Source: an uncultured Lachnospiraceae bacterium (GTDB lineage Bacteria; Bacillota; Clostridia; Lachnospirales; Lachnospiraceae). From it: a stretch of 64,000 nucleotides of DNA. The notes under the pieces are model-generated. The model searched no databases, had not been told where the DNA came from, and worked only from the letters and a program-made list of their open reading frames with translations. Below are positions 32,907 to 44,884 of this stretch, in pieces. The position numbers and the translations under genes were made by a program. The stretch spans positions 1 through 64,000 of the forward strand of contig CANQTF010000004.1 in assembly GCA_947626745.1 (NCBI GenBank). Reading direction: 5' to 3'. Each line of letters starts with the position of its first letter. Position 1 is the first letter of the stretch.

Positions 32907-32944
32907 TAGCACAAGACAAGGCGGGAGCAAAGGAGTTACGAGCG

Positions 32945-33961
32945 TTGAACATTTACGACATTTCCAAGCAGGCGGGCGTGTCCATAGCGACCGTTTCCCG
33001 TGTCCTGAACGGCAGCCCTAACGTGAAACCTTCCACGCGCAGAAAAGTGATGGATATCATCGACCAGTACGGATACACGCCCAACGCGTTTGCCAGAGGG
33101 CTTGGTCTGGACACCATGAATTCTATCGGGATCATATGCGCCGACAGCTCCGATCTCTACCTCTCCAAAGCCATTTACTATATCGAGGGCAACCTCCGCA
33201 AGAACGGCTACAACTGTATCCTGACCTGCTCCGGCTACAACCACGACGACAAGGAGGCCGCTCTGGCCATGATGATCAACCGCCGCGTGGACGCAGTCAT
33301 TCTGGTGGGTTCCAACTATATCGAAGCGGACGATGAGACCAACCGCTACATCATGAACGCGGCCGCCCAGAGTCCGGTCTTCCTGCTCAATGCGAGCATG
33401 GACTGCCCCAACGTGTTCTGTGCCACATGCGACGATTTCAAGGCTATGCAGGATGCCGCCCTCGCCCTGATAGACAGCGGCATCACGGATATCCTTTATC
33501 TGTACAATTCCCACTCCTACAGCGGCAGACGGAAGCTGGGGGGCTACCGGTCGGCCTGTGAGATACGTAAACTCGACATTGCCCAAGATCTGATGCAGTT
33601 CTATGAAGGCTCCCACGAGGACATCGACGGCGTGTGCCGTTTCCTCTGCGGGCTCAGAGCGCAGGGACTCGTATTCCGCGCGGTCCTCGCGTCCGAAGAC
33701 ATGCTGGCCGCCGGCGCCGTCAAATACGCCAAGAAGAACGGCATCGCCATTCCGGACGAACTGTCCGTCATCGGCTACAACAATTCCCTGCTCACCACCT
33801 GCAGCGATCCGGAGATCACCTCCGTGGACAACAAGCTGGAGGCTCTGTGCTTTCAGCTCGTGCGGACGTGCATCGGCGTGCTGAACGGCGAGAAGATGCC
33901 GCCGAAGATCATCTACTCCGGCGAACTGGTACACAAGGGAACGACCAGACTGGTTCACTAA
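32945..33961 (+). CDS. LacI family transcriptional regulator
   Basis: A 338-residue regulator. The helix-turn-helix and hinge are at the very N-terminus (NIYDISKQAGVSIATVSRVL, then RRKVMDIIDQYGYTPNAFA). A periplasmic-binding-protein-like effector domain runs from about residue 60 (IGIICADSSDLYLSKAI, CFLL-type strands, LSVIGYNNSLL). I start at TTG 32945, nine bases after AAAGGAG, which places the HTH correctly; upstream codons lack similarity. It sits between the divergent uxaB operon and uxaC and is the obvious candidate controller of the hexuronate genes. The effector is unknown, possibly galacturonate or tagaturonate. Confidence 0.92.
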   Translation: MNIYDISKQAGVSIATVSRVLNGSPNVKPSTRRKVMDIIDQYGYTPNAFARGLGLDTMNSIGIICADSSDLYLSKAIYYIEGNLRKNGYNCILTCSGYNHDDKEAALAMMINRRVDAVILVGSNYIEADDETNRYIMNAAAQSPVFLLNASMDCPNVFCATCDDFKAMQDAALALIDSGITDILYLYNSHSYSGRRKLGGYRSACEIRKLDIAQDLMQFYEGSHEDIDGVCRFLCGLRAQGLVFRAVLASEDMLAAGAVKYAKKNGIAIPDELSVIGYNNSLLTTCSDPEITSVDNKLEALCFQLVRTCIGVLNGEKMPPKIIYSGELVHKGTTRLVH

Positions 33962-33997
33962 AAATATCATAATCAAACCAAAGGAGGTATATATTCT

Positions 33998-35404
33998 ATG
34001 AAAGCATTTATGGACAAGGATTTTCTTCTGTCCACCCCCACCGCACAGAAGCTCTTCCATGACTATGCGGAAAAAACGCCTGTGCTGGACTACCACTGCC
34101 ACATCAACCCCAAGGAGATCGCGCAGGACAGAAGATTTGACAACATCACGCAGGTCTGGCTGGGAGGCGACCATTACAAGTGGCGCTTCATGCGCTCCTG
34201 CGGCGTGGACGAACATTTCATAACCGGCGATGCCTCGGACAAGGAGAAATTCTTCAAGTGGGCCGAGGTGCTCGGCAAGGCGATCGGCAATCCGCTCTAT
34301 CACTGGAGTCATCTGGAGCTGCAGCGCTATTTCGGCTATCACGGAACGCTGAACAAGAACACTGCCGAGGAGGTTTGGGAGCTGTGCAACGCCAAACTTG
34401 CCGAGCCTTCCATGAGCGTGCGCAACCTGATCAAGCAATCCAACGTCACCCTGATCTGCACGACGGACGATCCCGTCGATTCTCTGGAATGGCACGATGC
34501 GATCGCGGCGGACAAGAGCTTTGACGTGCAGGTCCTTCCCGCTTGGCGTCCCGACAAGGCGATGAATATCGAGAAGCCCGATTACTTGGATTATCTGCAG
34601 TCTCTTGCCAAGGCAAGCGGCATAGCCGTCTCCTCTTTTGCCGATCTGAAGGAAGCGCTGAAGAACAGGATGGCATTCTTCGCCTCCAAGAAGTGCTGCG
34701 TATCCGACCACGCTCTGGAATACGTGATGTACGCTCCCGCGACGGACGCGGAGATCGAGGCGATCTTTGCGAAGCGCATGGCCGGCAATCCCGTAAGCCG
34801 CGAGGAAGAACTGAAGTTCAAGACAGCGTTCATGCTCTTCGTCGGCCGCGAGTACAACAGGCTCGGCTGGGTGATGCAGCTCCATTACGGCTGCAAGCGC
34901 GACAACAACCGCCTGATGTACGACAAACTCGGCCCGGATACCGGATACGACTGCATCAACAACTATGCGCCGTCCGCACAGATGGCCGACTTCCTGAATG
35001 CGCTGAACGAGACGGACGAACTGCCCAAGACGATCCTGTACAGCCTGAACCCCAACGACAATGAAGCGATCGGCACGATCCTCGGCTGCTTCCAGGATTC
35101 CACGGCTGTCGCTAAGATCCAGCAGGGAAGCGCGTGGTGGTTCAACGACCACAAGATCGGCATGAAGAATCAGATGCTCTCTTTGGCGAATCTCGGAAAT
35201 CTGTCCGGCTTCGTCGGTATGCTGACGGATTCCAGAAGCTTCCTGTCCTACACGCGGCATGAATACTTCCGCCGTATCCTCTGTGATCTGGTCGGCGGCC
35301 TTGTGGAGAACGGAGAATTTCCGTACGACGAGGAGATCCTCTCCGAGATCATCAAGGATATCTCCTACTACAACGCCGTCCGGTACTTCGGTTTCGACTT
35401 ATAA
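33998..35404 (+). CDS. uxaC: Glucuronate/galacturonate isomerase
   Basis: Isomerises D-galacturonate to D-tagaturonate and D-glucuronate to D-fructuronate. The 468 residues match the family. DYHCHINPKEIAQ carries the metal-binding His pair; TTDDPVDSLEWH, the LPAWRPDKA segment and MQLHYGCKRDNN are conserved. AAAGGAGGT gives a strong ribosome site before the ATG. It follows the LacI regulator by 36 bases and ends at a terminator. With UxaB and UxaA it completes the galacturonate branch to KDG; no UxuA or UxuB for the glucuronate branch is in the window. Confidence 0.96.
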   Translation: MKAFMDKDFLLSTPTAQKLFHDYAEKTPVLDYHCHINPKEIAQDRRFDNITQVWLGGDHYKWRFMRSCGVDEHFITGDASDKEKFFKWAEVLGKAIGNPLYHWSHLELQRYFGYHGTLNKNTAEEVWELCNAKLAEPSMSVRNLIKQSNVTLICTTDDPVDSLEWHDAIAADKSFDVQVLPAWRPDKAMNIEKPDYLDYLQSLAKASGIAVSSFADLKEALKNRMAFFASKKCCVSDHALEYVMYAPATDAEIEAIFAKRMAGNPVSREEELKFKTAFMLFVGREYNRLGWVMQLHYGCKRDNNRLMYDKLGPDTGYDCINNYAPSAQMADFLNALNETDELPKTILYSLNPNDNEAIGTILGCFQDSTAVAKIQQGSAWWFNDHKIGMKNQMLSLANLGNLSGFVGMLTDSRSFLSYTRHEYFRRILCDLVGGLVENGEFPYDEEILSEIIKDISYYNAVRYFGFDL

Positions 35405-35420
35405 CCACACGCACATAGCG

Positions 35421-35451
35421 AGAGCGGGCCCGCTGCGGACCCGCTCTTTTT
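35421..35451 (+). terminator. Terminator after uxaC
   Basis: Stem AGAGCGGG (35421-35428)/CCCGCTCT (35440-35447), extended inward by CCGC/GCGG, followed by TTTTT. It separates the convergent uxaC and MATE genes and overlaps the MATE stop region. Confidence 0.85.
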
Positions 35452-36865
35452 ATGCCGTCTTCGTTTTCTGTTTGATGCGCTCCTTCTTCCAGTAGCCGGT
35501 CAGATAGACCAGATACAGAAGGACAGCCGAGATACCGTTGCTGACCACGACGGAATACCAAATGCTCCGCACGCCCATGTGCAGCAGCTTCTCGCACACA
35601 TACAGCGTGGCAAAGCGGAACACCCAGAGACGCGAGGCATCCACGAGCATCGTGACCTCCGTGTGCCCGCTGCCCTGAAAAAGCCCCATCGTCGAATTGT
35701 AGACGCCGTTGGTGAACACCCAGAACGCCATGATGCTCAAAAACTCGGCCGCCATCGCGACCACTTCCTCGTCCTCCGAGAAGATGCGCACGATCGCCTC
35801 GGAGACCGGCGCGCGCGACAGGATCATACCGCCCACAAGGAGGAACACGATGATCATCTTCATGGAAAGCTTGTAGCCTTCCCTTGCGCGCTCCAACTGT
35901 CCGGCGCCCACATTCTGACCAACGATCGTGGCCACCGCCGAGCCGATACCGTTGGACGGCAGGGAGATCAACCCGTTTACCTTATTGCCGATCCCGTAAG
36001 CCGCCATTGCCTGTGTGCCGTATTTGAAGACGCTCTTGCTCATCAGCAGGAAGCCGAACTGCATCGTGCTGCCGCCTATGGCGGTGGGAAGCCCGATGAT
36101 GACGATGCTCCGCAGTTTTTCCTTTTCAAATCTCAGCTTTCGCAGCGCCAGCCTGATCGGCGCCTTATCGCTGTGCAGCAGGACAAACGCGATCACCGCG
36201 GGAACAGCCTTCGCCGTGACCGTCGCCAGCGCCGCGCCCGCCACGCCCCAGCGGAATCCCACCATGAACAGCGGGTCGAGCACCATGTTGACCGTGATGC
36301 CTAACAGATTCAACAGCATCGGCCGCACCGTATCGCCCTGCGCCTGATGGATCGCCGCATAGATATTGACCGTGTACAGGAAAGGCATATCCAGAATGAC
36401 AAGCTGCATGTAGATCCTGCTGTACGTCCATGTATCGCCATCCGCGCCCAGCCATGTGACGATGGCGGGCGTCGTGAGATTGCACAAAACGGCGCAGAAG
36501 ACCCCGAACAGCACGGCGCACGCAAATATCTGATTTGCCATGGAACGCGCGTCGTCCTTCTTTCCCGCGCCGATGTACTGCGCGATCAGGACCGACCCCG
36601 CCACCGTGATGCCCGAGCCGAAGTTGACCACGATGTTCTGCACCGGCGTGATCAGATTGATCGCCGCCAGCTCCTCCGTCCCCAGCGTGCCGAGCCAGTA
36701 GGTGTCCGTCAGATTGTACATCGTCTGCAGAAAGCTGTTGATGATGACAGGGACCGCCAGCGCGAGGATCGCCTTCATCATATTGCCGCTCAGGATCTGC
36801 GCGCTGTTCAGCTCACTGTTTTTCCGCTTATCCAATTTTGCTATGCCGTTTTTCCAACCGTTCAT
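35450..36865 (-). CDS. MATE family efflux transporter
   Basis: A 471-residue multidrug/toxin-extrusion type antiporter with twelve predicted membrane helices. Typical segments are LALAVPVIINSFLQTMYNLTDTYWLG and, at the start of the second half, IGLPTAIGGSTMQFG. Substrate is unknown. Its ATG overlaps the stop of the ankyrin-GH43 gene as ATGA, so it is translationally coupled to a pectin/xylan enzyme operon, which is unusual for a MATE gene. It may export a toxic by-product or a phenolic released from plant wall material; this is speculation. Confidence 0.88.
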   Translation of the reverse strand: MNGWKNGIAKLDKRKNSELNSAQILSGNMMKAILALAVPVIINSFLQTMYNLTDTYWLGTLGTEELAAINLITPVQNIVVNFGSGITVAGSVLIAQYIGAGKKDDARSMANQIFACAVLFGVFCAVLCNLTTPAIVTWLGADGDTWTYSRIYMQLVILDMPFLYTVNIYAAIHQAQGDTVRPMLLNLLGITVNMVLDPLFMVGFRWGVAGAALATVTAKAVPAVIAFVLLHSDKAPIRLALRKLRFEKEKLRSIVIIGLPTAIGGSTMQFGFLLMSKSVFKYGTQAMAAYGIGNKVNGLISLPSNGIGSAVATIVGQNVGAGQLERAREGYKLSMKMIIVFLLVGGMILSRAPVSEAIVRIFSEDEEVVAMAAEFLSIMAFWVFTNGVYNSTMGLFQGSGHTEVTMLVDASRLWVFRFATLYVCEKLLHMGVRSIWYSVVVSNGISAVLLYLVYLTGYWKKERIKQKTKTA

Positions 36866-38781
36866 CGTTCGACCTTATAGATAAAATCTTCAAACACCGC
36901 AGTCAGCCCGCCTTCCTTGGCGTAAGCGTACATACCGACCATGGCTCCCGTGAACCGCTTGCCGATAGAAACGCCCTCGTCGCACAGATAGTAGACGTCC
37001 GGAAGCAGTTCACTCTCGTACCGGCGCTTTTCCGTCACCGCCCAAAACTGCCTTTGTAAGCCCTTCGTCCTGACTCCCAACTCTATGCGCGCCGCGCCGT
37101 CCGCGCGCTGTGCGGTATCCTGTGTATCCAAATACGTTTTCTCATGGCAGATCGTCCGCGTCCCGATATGCTCCTTCACCTGCAGGAACGCGCCCTCTTC
37201 CTCTCTGCCCAGCGAAAAGCTCACCCAGCTGTTCTCGTCATAGTAGCAGGTGATCCCCGCCTCCTGCCCCGCCGCAAGCTCCGGCATGTGCATGGTGACC
37301 TGCGCCGAGAAGGCAAACTCCGTCTGTCTGCGCAGACACAGGTTGCGCGCCGCCACGTCGGACAACGGCGCCCTGCTCGCTTGCAGGACAAAACGATCTC
37401 CCTCGATCCGTATCCCGTCGGGATCCGGCTCTCTCGGGCTGACCCACTGCAGCCGCGGCACTTCCTTCGGCGCATAGGGCGGAAGCGCCGGCCTCTTTTG
37501 CAGGACGCTGGGGCCGTTCAACTCGTTCACGACAGGCCAGCCGTCCTCGGTCCAGCGGATCGGGTCGAGCGCCGTCTCCCGGCCGAGCATACTGCATATG
37601 TCAGGCCCCTCTTCCCCGTCGCGCCACAGTTTTCTGCCGCACAGATAGACCATGTACCAGTCTCCCGCCGCAGTCTGCACCGGCTTGCCGTGTCCGCATC
37701 TCCAGATGCCCGCGCCCGCGTCTTCCTGCCGCATGATCGGATTGTAAGGGCACGGCTCATAATCGCCGAAAAGCGTCCTGCTCCTCGCCACGCTGATGCG
37801 GTGTCCCGCCCCCGTGCCTCCCTCCGCCAGAAACAGGTAATACCAGCCGTCCCTGTAAAGCAGATGCGGCCCCTCCGGCGCGCGCTTCTGATCGCCGTAG
37901 TAGAGCAGTCTGGCCTCGGAGATCTGACGTTTGCAGTCCGCGGACAGCTCGAAGATCCTCGCGCCCCTGTTCAAAAGCATGTAATGTCTCCCGTCTGTGT
38001 CATGGAAGATAGAGGGATCGATACCGTCCTCCTCTATGTAAGACGGCTCGCTGTAAGGCCCCTCCGGTCTGTCGGAGGAGACGACGATCTGTCTGCGGTA
38101 GACGGTCCCCGTATCGTTCAGGCGGTAAGTCGCCGTGATATAGAAGGTCCCGTTGTGGTAGGAAATATCCGGCGCCCAATATCCTCTGCCGCCCTCCAGA
38201 TCCCCCAGTCCGGACCATGCGGGATTCGTGACCGCGTGGCCGATGATCTCCCAGTGTACCAGATCCTTGGAGTGAGAGATCGGGATACACGGGAAGAAGA
38301 TAAAGCTGGAGTTGACCATATAGTAGTCGTCCCCCACGCGCACGATCGAGGGATCCGGAAACATGCCCCGTCTGATAGGATTGCGGTACATCTCCTCGTA
38401 GGGCGCTCCGACCTTTGCCTGAAAATAAGCTAAAAGCTCTTCATGCTTTTCCTCGTAGGCGATCTGGTACGGCGTCACCAGATCACGGTCGCCGCTCAGG
38501 ATATCCATGCCGACCTTCTCCACAAGATAGCGGCAGAGCGATGCATTTCCCGACATCGCCCCGTAGTGAAGGATATTCCTGTTATTGCCGTCCACCGTGT
38601 TCATGCTGGCTCTGGAATACTCCACGATATATTTCACCAATTCCTGACTGCCGCCCGCTGCGGCGAGGAAGGGCATGGCAATTCCCGCCTCGTCCGTCTG
38701 ATCTATCGCAGACGGATCCGCTGTCAGGATCCGCTTGACCGCTTCCATGTCCTGTGCTTTTATCGCGTCCTGAATCGTCAT
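36862..38781 (-). CDS. Ankyrin-repeat / GH43 glycosidase fusion
   Basis: A 639-residue protein with an unusual build. Residues 1-125 are ankyrin repeats (MEAVKRILTADPSAID, GIAMPFLAAAGGSQELVKYI, RNILHYGAMSGNASLCRYLV, VTPYQIAYEEKHEELLAYF). Residues 133-430 are a GH43 five-blade propeller with Asp143 (FPDPSIVRVG), Asp255 (GIDPSIFHD) and Glu303 (APEGPHLLYR) as base, pKa modulator and acid. The remainder is a C-terminal beta-sandwich like those of GH43 xylosidases/arabinofuranosidases. No signal peptide. The first ATG is 15 bases after the previous stop with AGGAGG upstream, so the ankyrin part is translated. Arabinosidase or xylosidase activity cannot be told apart. Confidence 0.9.
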   Translation of the reverse strand: MTIQDAIKAQDMEAVKRILTADPSAIDQTDEAGIAMPFLAAAGGSQELVKYIVEYSRASMNTVDGNNRNILHYGAMSGNASLCRYLVEKVGMDILSGDRDLVTPYQIAYEEKHEELLAYFQAKVGAPYEEMYRNPIRRGMFPDPSIVRVGDDYYMVNSSFIFFPCIPISHSKDLVHWEIIGHAVTNPAWSGLGDLEGGRGYWAPDISYHNGTFYITATYRLNDTGTVYRRQIVVSSDRPEGPYSEPSYIEEDGIDPSIFHDTDGRHYMLLNRGARIFELSADCKRQISEARLLYYGDQKRAPEGPHLLYRDGWYYLFLAEGGTGAGHRISVARSRTLFGDYEPCPYNPIMRQEDAGAGIWRCGHGKPVQTAAGDWYMVYLCGRKLWRDGEEGPDICSMLGRETALDPIRWTEDGWPVVNELNGPSVLQKRPALPPYAPKEVPRLQWVSPREPDPDGIRIEGDRFVLQASRAPLSDVAARNLCLRRQTEFAFSAQVTMHMPELAAGQEAGITCYYDENSWVSFSLGREEEGAFLQVKEHIGTRTICHEKTYLDTQDTAQRADGAARIELGVRTKGLQRQFWAVTEKRRYESELLPDVYYLCDEGVSIGKRFTGAMVGMYAYAKEGGLTAVFEDFIYKVER

Positions 38782-38796
38782 ATACGCCCTGCCCTC

Positions 38797-40350
38797 CTAC
38801 AGATCTTCCACATGCATATACGCAAAATCCGCGTAACCGCACTGCTCGACGCCGGAGACGGTCCCTGCAAACAGGCCGATCTTCGCGCCTACCCAAGTGT
38901 GATCCGTCGGGAAAAATGACGTCTCCACCTGCACGTAATCCTCTCCGTCCACGGAAAACTCCATCGTAAAGCTGTCCTCCGTCAGGCTCTCCCTAAGCCA
39001 GAGCTCCGTGACATCTCCCTGCAGTCCGAGCGTCCTCACCTCTTCCTCCATGCCCTGTACGCCGTCAAAGCTCTGCGCATAGACAAGCTCCTTCCTGCCG
39101 TCTGCGATCCGGGCCGCAAGATAAGCGTAGTGTCCGCCCATCATGACAAGCCCCGCCTGTCCGTTCTCCTGCAGCCCGTCAAGCCGAAGCCTCGTCTCCG
39201 CCCGAAAACGGGGACATACCAGCTTCTGTGTCAGCACATTGGCATTTTCCCACAGGATCGGCGCATCGCTGCCCGAGGGATTCAGCGCAAACAGCCGCAG
39301 ATGACCGGGATTCTGTGTCAGGGAAGCAAAATCCGCTCTCGCGTTGCCAAGCCACTGCCACTGTAAGCCGAGCGCCGTGCCGTCGAACTCATCCGACGCC
39401 TCCAAATAAGTCATCTCGCTGTCCTTTCCCATATCGGGTTTTGCATGGACAAGACACGGTCTGCCGCAGCCCTCCGCATCCGGATCCACGCCGATCACCG
39501 GCCAGTCGTTCTCCCAGTGTACGGGCTGCAGATGTACGATCCTGCCGTACAGTCCCCTGTCCTGAAAATGCAAAAACCACTCCTGCCCCGACAAAGTATC
39601 GACCAGTCCGCCCTGATGCGGGCCGTTCACCTCCGTGTCCCCCTGCTTCATGACGATCTTCTCCTCATAAGGGCCGTAGATGTCCCTTGCGCGCAGCGCC
39701 GTCTGCCAGCCCGTGCGCACCCCGCCCGCGGGCGCGAGGATATAGTAGAAGCCGTTCCGCTTGTAGACCTTCGGCCCTTCTATGGTAGGCTGCGTCTCCA
39801 CGCCGTTATACAGGATATGATCCGGCGCGGCGGCCCGCGTGCCGTCAGCCGTCATCGGGAAGATGCCGAGGCAGCTCTTGAAACCGATCCGGCTTTTCGC
39901 ATAGCCGTGTACGATGTACGCCGTGCCGTCCTCCTCCCAGTACGGGCAGGGATCGATCAGCCCCTTGGCCTCCAGAACAAGCACGGGCTTCTCCCACTCT
40001 CCCAAGGGTTCCTTCGTCTTGACCATAAAGATGCCCTCGTCGGGCATGCCGTAGTAGATGTAAAATTCTCCGTTATGATAGCGGAGGGCGGGCGCCCAGA
40101 TCCCCTTCGCATGCTGCGGCGTGTCATACGCAGCATAGTCGATACGCTCTTTGACCGCATAATTCTCCAGCTTCCAGTTCACCAGATCCTTCGAGGTGAG
40201 GATCGGCAGCCCCGGTATGTAGTTAAAGCTGGACGCAGTCATATAAAAAGTGTCGCCCACCCTGATCACATCAGGATCGGAATAATCCGCATACAGGACG
40301 GGGTTTTGGAATGTGCCGTCCCCCAGATCCGATTTCCACAAACGCTCCAT
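38797..40350 (-). CDS. GH43 beta-xylosidase / arabinofuranosidase
   Basis: A 517-residue cytoplasmic glycosidase. The GH43 propeller begins at NPVLYADYSDPDVIRVGDTFYM with base Asp25; Asp133 (LIDPCPYWEEDG) and Glu191 (TIEGPKVYKRNG) complete the triad. From about residue 320 a beta-sandwich domain follows, as in xylosidases of the XynB type. The ATG at 40350 follows GGAAGGAG; seven upstream codons are probably untranslated. No signal peptide. It lies 65 bases after the acetylesterase gene and 15 before the ankyrin-GH43 gene. Likely trims arabinose or xylose side chains of imported pectin fragments. Confidence 0.92.
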   Translation of the reverse strand: MERLWKSDLGDGTFQNPVLYADYSDPDVIRVGDTFYMTASSFNYIPGLPILTSKDLVNWKLENYAVKERIDYAAYDTPQHAKGIWAPALRYHNGEFYIYYGMPDEGIFMVKTKEPLGEWEKPVLVLEAKGLIDPCPYWEEDGTAYIVHGYAKSRIGFKSCLGIFPMTADGTRAAAPDHILYNGVETQPTIEGPKVYKRNGFYYILAPAGGVRTGWQTALRARDIYGPYEEKIVMKQGDTEVNGPHQGGLVDTLSGQEWFLHFQDRGLYGRIVHLQPVHWENDWPVIGVDPDAEGCGRPCLVHAKPDMGKDSEMTYLEASDEFDGTALGLQWQWLGNARADFASLTQNPGHLRLFALNPSGSDAPILWENANVLTQKLVCPRFRAETRLRLDGLQENGQAGLVMMGGHYAYLAARIADGRKELVYAQSFDGVQGMEEEVRTLGLQGDVTELWLRESLTEDSFTMEFSVDGEDYVQVETSFFPTDHTWVGAKIGLFAGTVSGVEQCGYADFAYMHVEDL

Positions 40351-40415
40351 AAACGCTCCTTCCCGCAGCAAGACCGCGCCTCATCCTGCGCGGCCCCGTA
40401 CTGCCCTTTTCGTTT

Positions 40416-41129
40416 TTACATGCCATAAAAAGGCTTCTCAAACAGATCCTCCAACAGAAGATCCGCGTAGATGCCGCCCAACTCCTTCAGGCCGCGCGCA
40501 ATGCAGCCGGCATAGATCACCGCGCCCTCATAGCGCAGATGCGTATTGTCCGTGTCGAGCCCCTCCGGGTGGTACGGATAGATGCCGGCGGGAATGTGCA
40601 TATACCACGTAAGCGTATCCTCCGGCCCCGTCTTCTCCAGCTTTTCGCGGCTCATCGTAAAAAGATCGATCAGCGGCACGTCGAGTTCCTTTGCCGTCTT
40701 CTTCATAGCCTCCACATAGGGAAGATGCAGACTCTCCTCCAGACGGCCGTCCTCCTTGAAGTTCCTCCGTTCAAGCGGCGTGATGAAGACCGGATACGCT
40801 TTCTTGTCCCTCGCCACATTGACGAATTTGCCGAGGTTCGTCCTGTACTCTGTGTCGGGGTCGGTGTAGCGCGCCGGATCCGTATCCTTCTCGTCGTTGT
40901 GGCCGAACTGGATAAAGAGGAAATCTCCCTCCGCGATGCGGTCATAGATCGGCACGAGTCTGGACTCGTCGATAAAGCTTTTCGTGCTGCGCCCGTTCTT
41001 CGCATGATTTTCTACTCTGATCTCCGGTTTGAGGTACATCGGCAGCACCTGCCCAAGCCCCGTCTGCGGAAACGTCAGGATCCCGTTGAACTGCACCGTG
41101 GAATCCCCCGCCCAAAATATTGTGTTCAT
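40416..41129 (-). CDS. Rhamnogalacturonan acetylesterase-like SGNH hydrolase (CE12)
   Basis: Predicted to remove acetyl groups from galacturonic acid in rhamnogalacturonan. The 237-residue SGNH fold shows FWAGDSTVQ (nucleophile Ser10), the NHAKNGRSTKSF block, FIQFGHND (oxyanion Asn) and GLDTDNTHL (catalytic Asp-x-x-His). No signal peptide. The ATG at 41129 follows GGAGGAG; the longer frame would start with TTG. It heads the acetylesterase-GH43-ankyrin/GH43-MATE run. A terminator separates it from the ABC transporter genes. Confidence 0.9.
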   Translation of the reverse strand: MNTIFWAGDSTVQFNGILTFPQTGLGQVLPMYLKPEIRVENHAKNGRSTKSFIDESRLVPIYDRIAEGDFLFIQFGHNDEKDTDPARYTDPDTEYRTNLGKFVNVARDKKAYPVFITPLERRNFKEDGRLEESLHLPYVEAMKKTAKELDVPLIDLFTMSREKLEKTGPEDTLTWYMHIPAGIYPYHPEGLDTDNTHLRYEGAVIYAGCIARGLKELGGIYADLLLEDLFEKPFYGM

Positions 41130-41251
41130 ATGCTCCTCCAAATTACCCTATGATCTATTTTTGCAACGAGCCGAAACTCGCTTTGCGGGTTTCGCCCGTC
41201 ATCGCGGCATTCGCCGGATCGACAAGTCTGCCCGGCTCATTGCCCGCGTAA

Positions 41252-41314: not shown

Positions 41315-42160
41315 TTACTCCTTGACAGCGCCGATATTGACACCCTTGACGAAGTACTTCTGTAAGAAAGGATACAGGATCATGAACGGAATGATGACGA
41401 TGATGATCGCCGCGTTCTTGACCGTGTTCTCCGTCGCGTTGCTGCCCGCCGTAGGCGGCAGATCACTACCCATGACCATACCGCGCAGCTTCATCTGGAA
41501 GTTGTACCACTTGGAATCTGTGATGTACAGTTTGTAGTGGGTGTAGTCGTTCCAGTAGGTCACCGCAAACATCAGGCCGATCGAAGCAAGGGCCGCCTTG
41601 GACATCGGCAGCACGATGCGGATAAAGGTCTGCATCGGTGAGCAGCCGTCCAGCGTAGCGGACTCAAACAAACTCTGCGGGATACCTTCAAAGAAGTTCC
41701 GCATCAGCACCAGATTGTACACGTTCAATGCCGGGAACAGGATAACGACCCAGATCGTGTTCGTCAGGTGCAGTCCTCGTAGCACCAAGTAGGTGGGGAT
41801 CATACCGCCGTTGAAGATCATCGTAAAGAGCAGCATGTTCGCAAAGAAGTTTCTGCCCGGCATATCCCATTGGATCAATACATACGCGCCCAGCGTCGAC
41901 AGCGTCAGCGCGATCAGCGTACCGACGATCGTGGTGATAAAGGAGATGATCAGCGGACGTAACAGCGTCGGGTTCGAGAAGACGTTCTTATAACCGTCCA
42001 GACCGAAAGCCTCCGGCCACAGCTTCATACCGTATGCCGTATGTAAGTCGAAGGAGTCAACGATGACCTTCCACATCGGGATCAGGATAACAAACGCCAG
42101 TATAATAAACACCAGACCATTGATGATCTGAAAAGCTGAAATTTTCTTTTTCTTCTTCAT
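41315..42160 (-). CDS. Carbohydrate ABC transporter permease (LplC/YtcP-like)
   Basis: A 281-residue inner-membrane permease with six helices. The ATPase-contact EAA loop is visible as EGIPQSLFESATLDGCSPMQTFIRI (Glu-Ser-Ala-x3-Gly). Sequence character is that of the YtcP/LplC group used for complex sugars such as rhamnogalacturonan oligosaccharides. It follows the partner permease by 12 bases and ends at a strong terminator. No ATPase gene is in the operon, so a shared MsmX-type ATPase elsewhere is expected. Confidence 0.92.
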   Translation of the reverse strand: MKKKKKISAFQIINGLVFIILAFVILIPMWKVIVDSFDLHTAYGMKLWPEAFGLDGYKNVFSNPTLLRPLIISFITTIVGTLIALTLSTLGAYVLIQWDMPGRNFFANMLLFTMIFNGGMIPTYLVLRGLHLTNTIWVVILFPALNVYNLVLMRNFFEGIPQSLFESATLDGCSPMQTFIRIVLPMSKAALASIGLMFAVTYWNDYTHYKLYITDSKWYNFQMKLRGMVMGSDLPPTAGSNATENTVKNAAIIIVIIPFMILYPFLQKYFVKGVNIGAVKE

Positions 42161-42172
42161 ACCATTCCCTCC

Positions 42173-43108
42173 TTACACGATTCCGCGGCCTTCGCGTACT
42201 TTCTTACTCCACTGGTTGCAGACAAGAACAAGCACACAGCCCACCAGAGACTTGAACAGGCCGACCGCCGTCGTATAGCCGTAGTTCGGGATAGCGCCGC
42301 TGTTAAAACTCTGATAGTAGATGTAGGTTTCAAGTACGTTGGACACGTCCAGCACCGCGTCGTTCTGCAGTACGAAAGCGGACTCGAACAGGTTCATGAC
42401 CTTGGCGAGGTTCAGGATGATGACCGTCAGGATCGTATTGCGCAGCTGCGGGAAGGTGATATACCACATCTTGCCCCATCTGCCGGCGCCGTCGATGGCG
42501 GCCGCCTCATAGAGATCCGTATTGATGCCGGCCAACGTCGCCATGAAGATGACGGTCTGCCAACCGGTCTCTTTCCAGAGGTTGATGATATAATAAGCAG
42601 GACGCCACCACTTCGAATTTCCCAGGAAGTAGATCATACTCTTGGAATCTACTATGTGCAGATTCACAAGGAGCGTGTTCACAAGACCGCTGCTCGAAGG
42701 AGACAGGATCAGGGAGAAAATCGATGCCGTCACGACCCATGACATGAAGTGCGGCAGGTAGATGATCGTCTGCACTACTTTCTTAAATAAGAGGTTGGCG
42801 ATCTCATTCAGCAGGATCGACACGATGACCGCGAACGCCGTCGTGAGCAACAGCTTGATGATACTGATCTGAATGGTGTTCCAGAATGCCGACCAGAAAT
42901 TCTGCATCGAGAACATCCGCTGGAAGTTCTCTAACCTCGTAAACGCAGGTTCTCTTATGCCGTTATAGTTGGTAAACGCGTAGCGGATACCGAGCATCGG
43001 CGCATAAAAGAATATGATGGCAAATACAAATACCGGAAGGAACATCAGATAAAATCCCCTATACTTGTAAATTTTAGCCATAGTCTTATTTTTTTTCTTT
43101 TCCTTCAT
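42173..43108 (-). CDS. Carbohydrate ABC transporter permease (LplB/YteP-like)
   Basis: A 311-residue permease with six membrane helices. The N-terminus YRGFYLMFLPVFVFAIIFFYAPMLGIRYAFTNYNG is typical of the LplB/YteP family, and DLYEAAAIDGAGRWGKMWYITFP is the EAA loop contacting the ATPase. Hydrophobic stretches span the rest. It begins 141 bases after the lipoprotein gene; a stable stem-loop fills that gap. With the second permease it forms the channel for sugars delivered by the lipoprotein. Confidence 0.92.
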   Translation of the reverse strand: MKEKKKNKTMAKIYKYRGFYLMFLPVFVFAIIFFYAPMLGIRYAFTNYNGIREPAFTRLENFQRMFSMQNFWSAFWNTIQISIIKLLLTTAFAVIVSILLNEIANLLFKKVVQTIIYLPHFMSWVVTASIFSLILSPSSSGLVNTLLVNLHIVDSKSMIYFLGNSKWWRPAYYIINLWKETGWQTVIFMATLAGINTDLYEAAAIDGAGRWGKMWYITFPQLRNTILTVIILNLAKVMNLFESAFVLQNDAVLDVSNVLETYIYYQSFNSGAIPNYGYTTAVGLFKSLVGCVLVLVCNQWSKKVREGRGIV

Positions 43109-43249: not shown

Positions 43250-44884
43250 TTACTGTGCGTTCAGGGAGTCAACGATCTGCTGAGACATATCAGCATAACC
43301 GCCGGACTCATACTCCGCATACGCCTCATCAACAGTCATCTGACCGAGCGCAACCTTTGTGACAAGGCTCTGCTTCTCTGTCATCAGGTCACCGTTGTAC
43401 TGGTTCATCGCGTCCGTAGAAGGAACAACGAATGCACCTACGGAATGCGTGTTGAACAAATCCTGTGCCGCCAGAGCCTCGGGCGCTACCGTCGTCTCAC
43501 GAGGGTCGTTCGCCAGTTCCGTCAGCGCAAGCATCGGATCGATGTGAGCCTTGGTGTACTGGGAACCGGGGGTCTCCAGATTGTCAAGCATATGGAACTC
43601 GCCGTCAGCGTAGGTCTTCGGGTCGTCCGTATCCGCATACAGCGTCTCCGCTGCGGTAGACCAGTGCGTACCCTCTACGCCGTAGGTCCACAGGAACTGT
43701 ACGTCGCCGCCGTCCTGCATCGCCTCGATGAAGTATTTGAATACGCCCTCAGGATTCTCGCAAGCCGTGGTGATGCACCAAGCCGGAGATACACGGTCAA
43801 TGTAACCGCCGTTGCCGTCATGCTGTCCCTGCACGCCTGCCGTGATCTCTTTGATCGGCTCCAGAACTGCCATCGTGCCGTCCAGGCCGTTGTTCTCGCA
43901 GTTGTTCTTGATGTTGCTTGCCCAGGTACCAGCCCAGTAGGTGAATACGCCCAAGCTGTCGTCATAGAACTTATTGCGGACATCACTCGTCGCATAGTTG
44001 GTGGACTCGGGGTCAACAACACCGTCGGCAACGCCCTGCGCCAGTCTCTCCATAGCCGCCTTCATGGAATCCTCAGCGAAGCCGTCAGCCCATGTGCCGT
44101 CCTCTTTCTGATAGAAGCTCGGCCATGCATCCTGATAGAACTCCGGGAAGTAGTTGATGTAAGGCGCCTCAGCATTCAGGAAACCGGATGCCGCTACTAC
44201 ATAGTCAACACCCTCAGCCTCTTTCAGCTTGAGCAGCATGTCATAGTACTCATCGAAGTTGGTGGGCAGCGTCGTAATGCCCGCATCGTCAAGCCATTTC
44301 TGCTTTACGTAGGTAACGCAGCCGTTACCGTGCGTAACCGGCATGCCGTAGAGGTGGCCGTCGATGAACATGGACTCAACCACACCTGCGCCGTTGTTCG
44401 CCTCCTGGCGTGTCTTCAGCTCGGAATTGTTCCAAGCGTCAGCCATATCCCAGAGAACGCCCTCGGAACCGTAGCTGGACATCTGCGTAGATGCAAGGAT
44501 CAGTACGTCCGGCCAATCACCGGATGCGATCTGCTGACCGACTACATCATAGTATGCATCATGGTCAGGCTGGATCACATTGATCTTGATGCCTGTCAGC
44601 TCTTCGAGCTTAGCCATGAACTGATCGCGGCCGTTCTCCTCTGTGAATACCGTACCGTCAACCATGATGGTGATCTCTTCCGGCTTCTCCACTTCCTCAG
44701 CGGGCGCCTCAGCCTCTGTGCCCGCATCTGCGGCGGGTGCATCCGTACCTGCGTCAGCAGCCGGCGCTTCCGTGCCTGCGTCAGCAGCGGGTTCTGTGGT
44801 AGAAGAGCTGTCTCCGCCGCCACAGCCTACTAATGAAACAACCATGGTTGTTGCCAAAAGCAGGGAAACTACTTTCTTTTTCAT
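43250..44884 (-). CDS. Sugar ABC transporter substrate-binding lipoprotein
   Basis: A 544-residue extracellular solute-binding protein of the LplA/YtcQ type. The signal peptide MKKKVVSLLLATTMVVSLVG ends at lipobox Cys21. Residues 22-70 are a low-complexity linker of repeated ADAGTEAP-like units plus acidic residues that lifts the domain through the wall. The binding domain starts near residue 70 (EEITIMVDGTVFTEENG). The ligand is probably an oligogalacturonide or rhamnogalacturonan fragment, judged only from neighbours. It is the first gene of the importer operon, with a promoter and a LacI-type operator upstream. Confidence 0.93.
   Translation of the reverse strand: MKKKVVSLLLATTMVVSLVGCGGGDSSSTTEPAADAGTEAPAADAGTDAPAADAGTEAEAPAEEVEKPEEITIMVDGTVFTEENGRDQFMAKLEELTGIKINVIQPDHDAYYDVVGQQIASGDWPDVLILASTQMSSYGSEGVLWDMADAWNNSELKTRQEANNGAGVVESMFIDGHLYGMPVTHGNGCVTYVKQKWLDDAGITTLPTNFDEYYDMLLKLKEAEGVDYVVAASGFLNAEAPYINYFPEFYQDAWPSFYQKEDGTWADGFAEDSMKAAMERLAQGVADGVVDPESTNYATSDVRNKFYDDSLGVFTYWAGTWASNIKNNCENNGLDGTMAVLEPIKEITAGVQGQHDGNGGYIDRVSPAWCITTACENPEGVFKYFIEAMQDGGDVQFLWTYGVEGTHWSTAAETLYADTDDPKTYADGEFHMLDNLETPGSQYTKAHIDPMLALTELANDPRETTVAPEALAAQDLFNTHSVGAFVVPSTDAMNQYNGDLMTEKQSLVTKVALGQMTVDEAYAEYESGGYADMSQQIVDSLNAQ

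Follow-up and report, generated by a model that had tools for sequence, protein, structure and literature searches.

Ankyrin repeats at the N-terminus of a Lachnospiraceae GH43 enzyme: a possible scaffold for a predicted two-enzyme unit

Introduction

GH43 is a very large family of enzymes from gut and rumen bacteria, and its accessory domains are usually read as carbohydrate-binding. Ankyrin repeats are a protein-interaction fold. Both occur in a single open reading frame of 639 amino acids (36862..38781) within a 64,000-nucleotide stretch of DNA from an uncultured Lachnospiraceae bacterium (GenBank assembly GCA_947626745.1, contig CANQTF010000004.1; hereafter the window). The ORF call and Pfam assign this gene, which like every feature described here lies on the minus strand, to an ankyrin-GH43-GH43_C2 enzyme. 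Why should a glycosidase carry such repeats? The original prediction, made from the sequence letters, proposed that they dock a cytoplasmic enzyme to a partner, perhaps the MATE transporter encoded by the overlapping gene or the neighbouring GH43. Here, we examine the architecture of the enzyme, its company in other genomes and its relatives. Our best explanation, to which we give about an even chance of being right, is a cytosolic unit of two GH43 enzymes acting on ABC-imported, probably pectic oligosaccharides, in which the ankyrin part is a fixed module that positions the partner.

Domain architecture and predicted fold

Pfam places Ank_2 at residues 6-95 (39.3 bits; curated cut-off 27.3), with an additional match to Ank_4 (32.7 bits; cut-off 22.7), followed by Glyco_hydro_43 (PF04616) at residues 132-416 (37534..38388; 273.7 bits, cut-off 32.2) and the GH43_C2 beta-sandwich (PF17851) at residues 443-636 (36874..37455; 89.4 bits, cut-off 22.7). 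The AlphaFold2 model of the single chain has a mean pLDDT of 93.9 and a pTM of 0.93, and ten-residue blocks of the ankyrin part score 94-98. Within residues 1-125 (38407..38781), four helix pairs are predicted (3-8/12-21, 36-42/46-55, 70-77/80-90 and 104-110/114-124); this is the ankyrin pattern, and the pairs recur about every 33 residues, as ankyrin repeats do. By sequence alone, the best solved ankyrin chain matched this block with an E value of 2.7e-17; in the fold searches, the best 50 listed matches per search were all GH43-type chains, with no ankyrin chain among the matches listed. The Pfam match and the structure prediction thus bear out the proposed ankyrin repeats.

The catalytic part has the beta-propeller fold of solved GH43 enzymes, which agrees with the fold search, and D143, D255 and E303, which we take to be the GH43 Asp/Asp/Glu catalytic residues, are invariant across all 131 rows of the alignment, among them the row from the window. 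A complete propeller with an intact triad and a C-terminal beta-sandwich, as first described, is therefore upheld by Pfam and the alignment. No NCBIfam model matched this enzyme or the neighbouring GH43 above its cut-off; below cut-off, arabinanase models and a single ankyrin effector model (19.7 bits against a cut-off of 500) matched weakly, which is generic similarity. Judged by eye, neither protein has an obvious signal peptide, in keeping with the predicted cytoplasmic location of the enzyme. Because the whole-chain pTM reaches 0.93, the ankyrin part is probably a fixed module rather than a loose tether, and the model suggests that the block is rigidly packed on its own enzyme.

The neighbouring GH43 enzyme

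The upstream gene (38797..40371; UPGH) encodes a GH43 plus GH43_C2 enzyme by Pfam, with an aligned triad of D32, D140 and E198. In a sample of 200 genomes of the family from 199 genera, in which phylogeny is handled by the sampling only, this partner occurs in 15 of the 16 ankyrin-positive genomes versus 13 of the 184 ankyrin-negative ones (Fisher 3.8e-14); the sixteenth positive genome has a divergent GH43 adjoining the ankyrin gene (37% identity). Of 28 further genomes in which the two genes lie apart, 25 still have the partner; it was not found in the genomes of loci L022, L031 and L054. It is adjacent or fused at 21 of 55 ankyrin loci and neither at 34. Adjacent or fused pairs were seen in 10 of 15 ankyrin genomes versus one of the six genomes whose enzyme is the ankyrin-less sister (one-sided Fisher 0.055).

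The two enzymes also occur as one protein. Twenty-five database proteins are single chains in the order partner GH43-ankyrin-GH43, and on the locus tree four fused rows (two of them identical) need three changes, two of which are forced by well-supported branches. The fusions lack ankyrin repeat 1, and in them the conserved ankyrin motif described below reads E54 in 26 of 26, Y55 in 24 of 26 and lysine in place of R57 in 22 of 26. At least ten rows are fused partner-GH43 chains that lack ankyrin, and among the seven of 200 genomes that hold only the ankyrin-less sister-type enzyme, six keep the partner (G039 does not). For these two reasons, pairing of the two GH43 enzymes does not need the ankyrin part. 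The original idea that the repeats dock the neighbouring GH43 thus stands in part: the pair itself is backed by co-occurrence and fusions, the repeats are not required for it, and a contact of the repeats with the neighbouring enzyme is possible. As a partner, this neighbour is plausible.

The main alternative is that the ankyrin part works purely within its own protein, stabilizing or shaping its active site or a homo-oligomer, and that the GH43 pair is linked only through metabolism, one enzyme removing a group and thereby exposing the substrate of the other. The structure predictions favour this explanation: the pTM is 0.93 for the single chain versus 0.72 for a fused chain of 1126 residues, and because of the latter value the placement of the partner is only partly determined. 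So do the retention of the partner by genomes with the ankyrin-less sister or with the genes apart, and the fusions that largely preserve the motif. Against it stand the fusions, which recur in a single order and have ankyrin between the two enzymes, and the disappearance of repeat 1 from chains that carry the partner. When 157 rows (Neff 66) were analysed for covariation of the ankyrin part with the remainder of the protein, plausible pairs appeared within the repeats, and the inter-domain pairs were scattered. On balance, we lean away from a purely intramolecular role, while regarding it as a serious contender.

Operon context

A MATE transporter gene (35450..36865; Pfam) overlaps the ankyrin-GH43 gene by four bases. 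On the other side, a GDSL esterase (40416..41141; Pfam and locus comparison) belongs to the same probable operon, followed by two ABC permeases (41315..42160 and 42173..43108) and an extracellular solute-binding protein (43250..44884), all by Pfam. Docking of the enzyme to a membrane transporter, either MATE or the ABC permeases, could be read from this overlap and from the presence of at least two of the three ABC gene kinds at 36 of 55 ankyrin loci. ABC genes beside glycosidases are common. When the architecture was sought in other genomes, MATE lay directly downstream at only 10 of the 55 loci (at 51 of which the downstream sequence exceeds 1.5 kb), and all ten fall in the window's own 15-row tree clade. 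This rules out MATE as a general partner, contrary to the earlier suggestion, and as nothing indicates contact with either kind of transporter, we consider transporter docking very unlikely.

The window also holds pectin-related genes for GH28, GH88, altronate dehydratase, tagaturonate reductase and glucuronate isomerase. Elsewhere, locus L017 has GH28 nearby and L023 has GH28 and GH88, and the neighbours at L045 are GH95 and a regulator, without pectin genes. From such neighbours, the substrate is probably pectic oligosaccharides.

Conservation and origin of the ankyrin block

A database search with residues 1-135 returned 537 matching proteins, and all of the best 120 of these, the window's own included, combine ankyrin with GH43. 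On the GH43 tree, the repeats are absent from the sister enzymes and present in 71 of 72 rows of their clade, which corresponds to one gain and one doubtful absence (L083, a doubtful long branch). Mean top-residue frequencies in the alignment fall in the order GH43 (0.87), ankyrin (0.71) and GH43_C2 (0.60). The motif EYSRASMN (residues 54-61; 38599..38622), which deviates from the usual ankyrin pattern, is near-invariant: E54 is found in 131, Y55 in 130, S59 in 125 and R57 in 122 of 131 rows. Purifying selection acts on the ankyrin codons, with dN/dS values below 0.25 against four relatives (0.133, 0.128, 0.238 and 0.055, two of them rough with dS above 1; a fifth comparison was saturated). 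The ankyrin-GH43 architecture is thus old and conserved. Stand-alone versions were sought among 34 matches to the ankyrin block of 72-227 amino acids; no clear case of a separate ankyrin protein emerged there, since the matches are short, 29 of the 34 lie on contigs below 5 kb and 10 contain the start of GH43.

These data bear on two further explanations. That the ankyrin part is a functionless, neutral leftover might be read from its third-position GC, lower than elsewhere (0.69 versus 0.78 and 0.75), and from the sister enzymes that lack it, but purifying selection, invariant residues and retention in every clade row except the doubtful one make it highly improbable. Next to impossible, in our judgement, is translation from Met131 with the ankyrin frame not translated together with the enzyme: although Met131 is frequent among relatives (119 of 131 rows), this internal start is rejected because the ankyrin frame is conserved, selected and found inside longer fused chains, and the purine run before Met131 abuts that ATG, leaving no ribosome site at proper spacing. 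A start at residue 1 is supported instead by a good AGGAGG ribosome-binding site (38793..38798), which runs into the stop codon of the GH43 gene upstream, and by a gap of 15 bases between that stop and the ATG; with the ankyrin frame kept in relatives, the fusion first proposed is genuine.

Comparison with known systems

The match to the solved GH43 enzyme BlXynB from Bacillus licheniformis (6ms2, 6ms3), a chain without ankyrin, starts at residue 129-130, and no ankyrin was matched in the alpha-L-arabinofuranosidases BoGH43A and BoGH43B from Bacteroides ovatus (5jow, 5joz; about 30% identity), whose entry titles name a xyloglucan locus. The best solved relative of the partner is BACEGG_01304 from Bacteroides eggerthii, a bifunctional GH43-CE protein (6mly; E 1.8e-53). 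By its title, its GH43 is joined to an esterase, much as the window's GH43 adjoins the GDSL esterase; it differs in being fused to the esterase and not to an ankyrin-GH43 enzyme. Also comparable are ankyrin-less GH43-GH43 chains such as P0156 (1040 residues), which combine these two types of enzyme in an identical order; there, the second GH43 directly follows the first with no ankyrin match between them. A literature search found no paper on ankyrin with GH43 in Lachnospiraceae or ankyrin with a glycoside hydrolase in Butyrivibrio, and, in the library searched, none by name for 6MS3, BlXynB or BACEGG_01304. Passages of PMC6801697 mention ankyrin proteins and GH43 separately.

Proposed two-enzyme unit

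In the two-enzyme unit that we favour, the ankyrin-GH43 protein would be a cytosolic enzyme, judging from its sequence, and exo-acting, judging from its family; together with the neighbouring GH43, it would act on oligosaccharides imported through the ABC transporter of the same probable operon. The repeats would have been gained once as an N-terminal module in this GH43 lineage and then kept. They would lie at the junction between the partner's C-terminus and the N-terminus of the ankyrin-GH43 enzyme, most likely packing on their own propeller or sandwich, as the pTM suggests. Their surface would position the partner so that two enzymes form one unit, this contact being the weakest step. Domain architecture, conservation, co-occurrence and natural fusions in one order are the directly supported parts.

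A stronger form can be offered tentatively, as possible but rather less than probable: the ankyrin part may serve as an integral scaffold by which two distinct exo-acting GH43 enzymes are locked together in the cytosol, noncovalently as products of neighbouring genes or within a single chain. Imported pectic oligosaccharides would then be trimmed by a pair of active sites with a fixed relative arrangement. Such an intracellular scaffolded pair would involve neither dockerins nor cohesins and would be overlooked by gene-by-gene annotation. Here, the accessory domain of a GH43 enzyme with no obvious signal peptide is a protein-interaction fold, kept across many Lachnospiraceae. Natural versions with and without ankyrin, fused or separate, are at hand for comparison, so that the role of such repeats in a metabolic enzyme of bacteria can be put to a direct test.

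Ankyrin-GH43 gene and probable operon

The gene at 36862–38781 on the minus strand encodes, by open reading frame and Pfam analysis, an enzyme of 639 residues with Ank_2 (6–95), GH43 (132–416) and GH43_C2 (443–636) domains, each scoring above its Pfam cut-off. The upstream gene (38797–40371, minus strand) encodes UPGH, in which Pfam identifies GH43 and GH43_C2 domains without ankyrin repeats. The original prediction held that the fusion is genuine, with a 15-base operon gap, a ribosome site and an intact Asp/Asp/Glu triad. All of this was borne out: the domains share one frame and 537 proteins match residues 1–135 (E up to 0.001; 763 candidates), AGGAGG ahead of the ATG overlaps the UPGH stop codon, which lies 15 bases from the ATG, and D143, D255 and E303 are equivalent to D32, D140 and E198 of UPGH. 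Judged by eye, neither enzyme has an obvious signal peptide. The probable operon runs, in order of transcription, from a solute-binding protein through two ABC permeases, a GDSL esterase, UPGH and the ankyrin enzyme to a MATE transporter, whose gene overlaps that of the ankyrin enzyme by four bases. A 774-residue open frame (32936–35260, minus strand) lies opposite the LacI and UxaC genes, has no Pfam match and is interrupted in relatives; it is probably a shadow frame.

In its catalytic part the enzyme is a typical GH43, a solved relative sharing 46% identity with it, and the architecture is visible in precomputed domain tables. The few source-named rows among the 120 matches listed read family 43 glycosylhydrolase and, once, xylan 1,4-beta-xylosidase. 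No paper on the architecture was found in the open literature searched, subscription papers being mostly outside it.

Age and selection of the fusion

Ankyrin and GH43 are both present in all 120 listed of the 537 matches, the window protein included. From species genomes 59 loci were drawn, most of them titled Lachnospiraceae or genera thereof. In a tree built from 86 GH43 rows plus three outgroup rows, ankyrin presence takes two changes, one gain and one absence; the sole absence is locus L083, a doubtful long branch, and the closest ankyrin-less sisters are L077–L082. The ankyrin codons gave dN/dS values of 0.133, 0.128, 0.238 and 0.055 against L003, L004, L005 and L051, respectively; two of the four comparisons are rough, their dS exceeding 1, and L008 was saturated. 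The ankyrin values lie below those of the C-terminal sandwich in three of four, L005 being slightly higher (0.238 versus 0.222). Judged by sequence comparison, the fusion is real and old, and its ankyrin codons are under purifying selection. The window's genome (assembly 83.5% complete) has no Ank_2 match besides the ankyrin enzyme; Ank_2 matches occur in 26 of 100 genomes of the family and, assigned by matching position, include the ankyrin-GH43 enzyme in ten of the 26.

Third-position GC is 0.69 in the ankyrin part (38392–38781), 0.78 in GH43 and 0.75 in C2. A long-branched ankyrin-GH43 from Fusibacter sp. 3D3 (L054) is basal in the ankyrin clade; downstream of its gene lie GDSL and a distant MATE. 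The family is otherwise mostly from Lachnospiraceae, but protein P0107 and locus L057, which contains just the GH43 end, are labelled Bacteroides in metagenome-assembled records; this may reflect a binning error or transfer.

Structure of the ankyrin module

A check for a non-ankyrin fold with AlphaFold2 (131 alignment rows; mean pLDDT 93.9, pTM 0.93) returned four helix pairs in the ankyrin block, with pLDDT of 94–98 per ten-residue block. Since loose placement of one fifth of the chain should clearly lower pTM, the model suggests that the module, itself real and selected, is probably fixed to its own enzyme. Most of the strongly conserved ankyrin positions, namely G44, N61, D64, L71, H72, G78, Y85 and L86, fit the ordinary ankyrin pattern; the EYSRAS motif (54–59) departs from it. 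E54 is found in 131, Y55 in 130, R57 in 122 and S59 in 125 of the 131 rows. The distant L075 and L076, both outside this alignment, do not retain the motif, which is therefore a trait of most rows seen, not all. In these two loci the ankyrin-GH43 is encoded by a separate gene, located at the partner gene's end or overlapping it, and ankyrin repeat 1 is absent.

Association with UPGH

Synteny was counted in 55 of 57 ankyrin loci (L003–L059; flanks up to 8 kb), L056 and L057 being cut at contig ends. The repeats had also been proposed to dock the MATE transporter, which is not supported: MATE lies directly downstream in only 10 of the 55 loci, all inside the 15-row clade that holds the window's enzyme. 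In 21 loci UPGH adjoins the ankyrin enzyme or is fused to it, and in 25 it is within the locus or fused; GDSL occurs in 24, and at least two of three ABC gene kinds in 36. UPGH is neither adjacent nor fused in 34 loci, and it was found in 25 of the 28 of their genomes searched, the misses being those of L022, L031 and L054; in L013 it is in the same locus, a few kilobases away.

Among 200 genomes of the family, the window's own included, the ankyrin enzyme occurs in 16 and UPGH (E up to 1e-60) in 28: both in 15, the ankyrin enzyme only in one, UPGH only in 13 and neither in 171 (Fisher 3.8e-14). In the ankyrin-only genome (G041) a divergent GH43 adjoins the ankyrin enzyme. An ankyrin-less sister enzyme is present in six of the 13 UPGH-only genomes; a seventh genome with a sister-type enzyme (G039, carrying L083) lacks UPGH. 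The pairing of the two enzymes is well supported; the original prediction had named the neighbouring GH43 as one possible docking partner.

Natural fusions and the possible role of the ankyrin module

With the first 540 residues of the fused chain in L041 as query, 1834 matches were obtained. Among the 120 listed, at least 25 chains of 1000 residues or more are ordered UPGH-ankyrin-GH43 (ankyrin from precomputed Pfam in 22, and from our own profile only in P0133, P0137 and P0177), and at least ten join UPGH to a sister GH43 without ankyrin, P0153 being ambiguous. The fused state takes three changes on the locus tree, two forced by well-supported branches. Alignments of the ankyrin fusions to the window protein start at residues 19–47, which means that the first repeat is wholly or largely absent; E54 is kept in 26 of 26, Y55 in 24, and R57 is replaced by K in 22. 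The GH43-ankyrin-GH43 gene of L071 (1474–4783, G093) is apparently split, with two frames in the partner half and one TGA, reflecting a sequencing error or a broken gene.

The repeats lie where two enzymes that have fused more than once meet, and the simplest account of this placement is that the module, probably fixed to its own enzyme, would also position UPGH. Almost as probable is a role confined to the ankyrin enzyme itself, and two observations count against docking: ankyrin-less UPGH-GH43 pairs exist, and a 1126-residue fused-chain model has good local confidence (mean pLDDT 92.3) with a pTM of 0.72, between our estimates for two blocks of this size placed freely (about 0.55) or fixedly (0.9), so the partner's position is only partly determined.

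GH28, GH88, altronate dehydratase, tagaturonate reductase, a LacI regulator and glucuronate isomerase lie nearby in the window and suggest that the substrate comes from pectin; the neighbours of L045 (GH95 and an AraC-type regulator) do not indicate pectin. Relatives of the partner GH43, including P0152, P0161, P0165, P0169–P0171 and P0240, are fused to GDSL or other esterase, pectinesterase, pectate lyase, GH28 or GH88 domains, which hints that the substrate is pectic. Judged by the genes around the enzyme in the window, L017 and L023, the substrate most likely derives from pectin.
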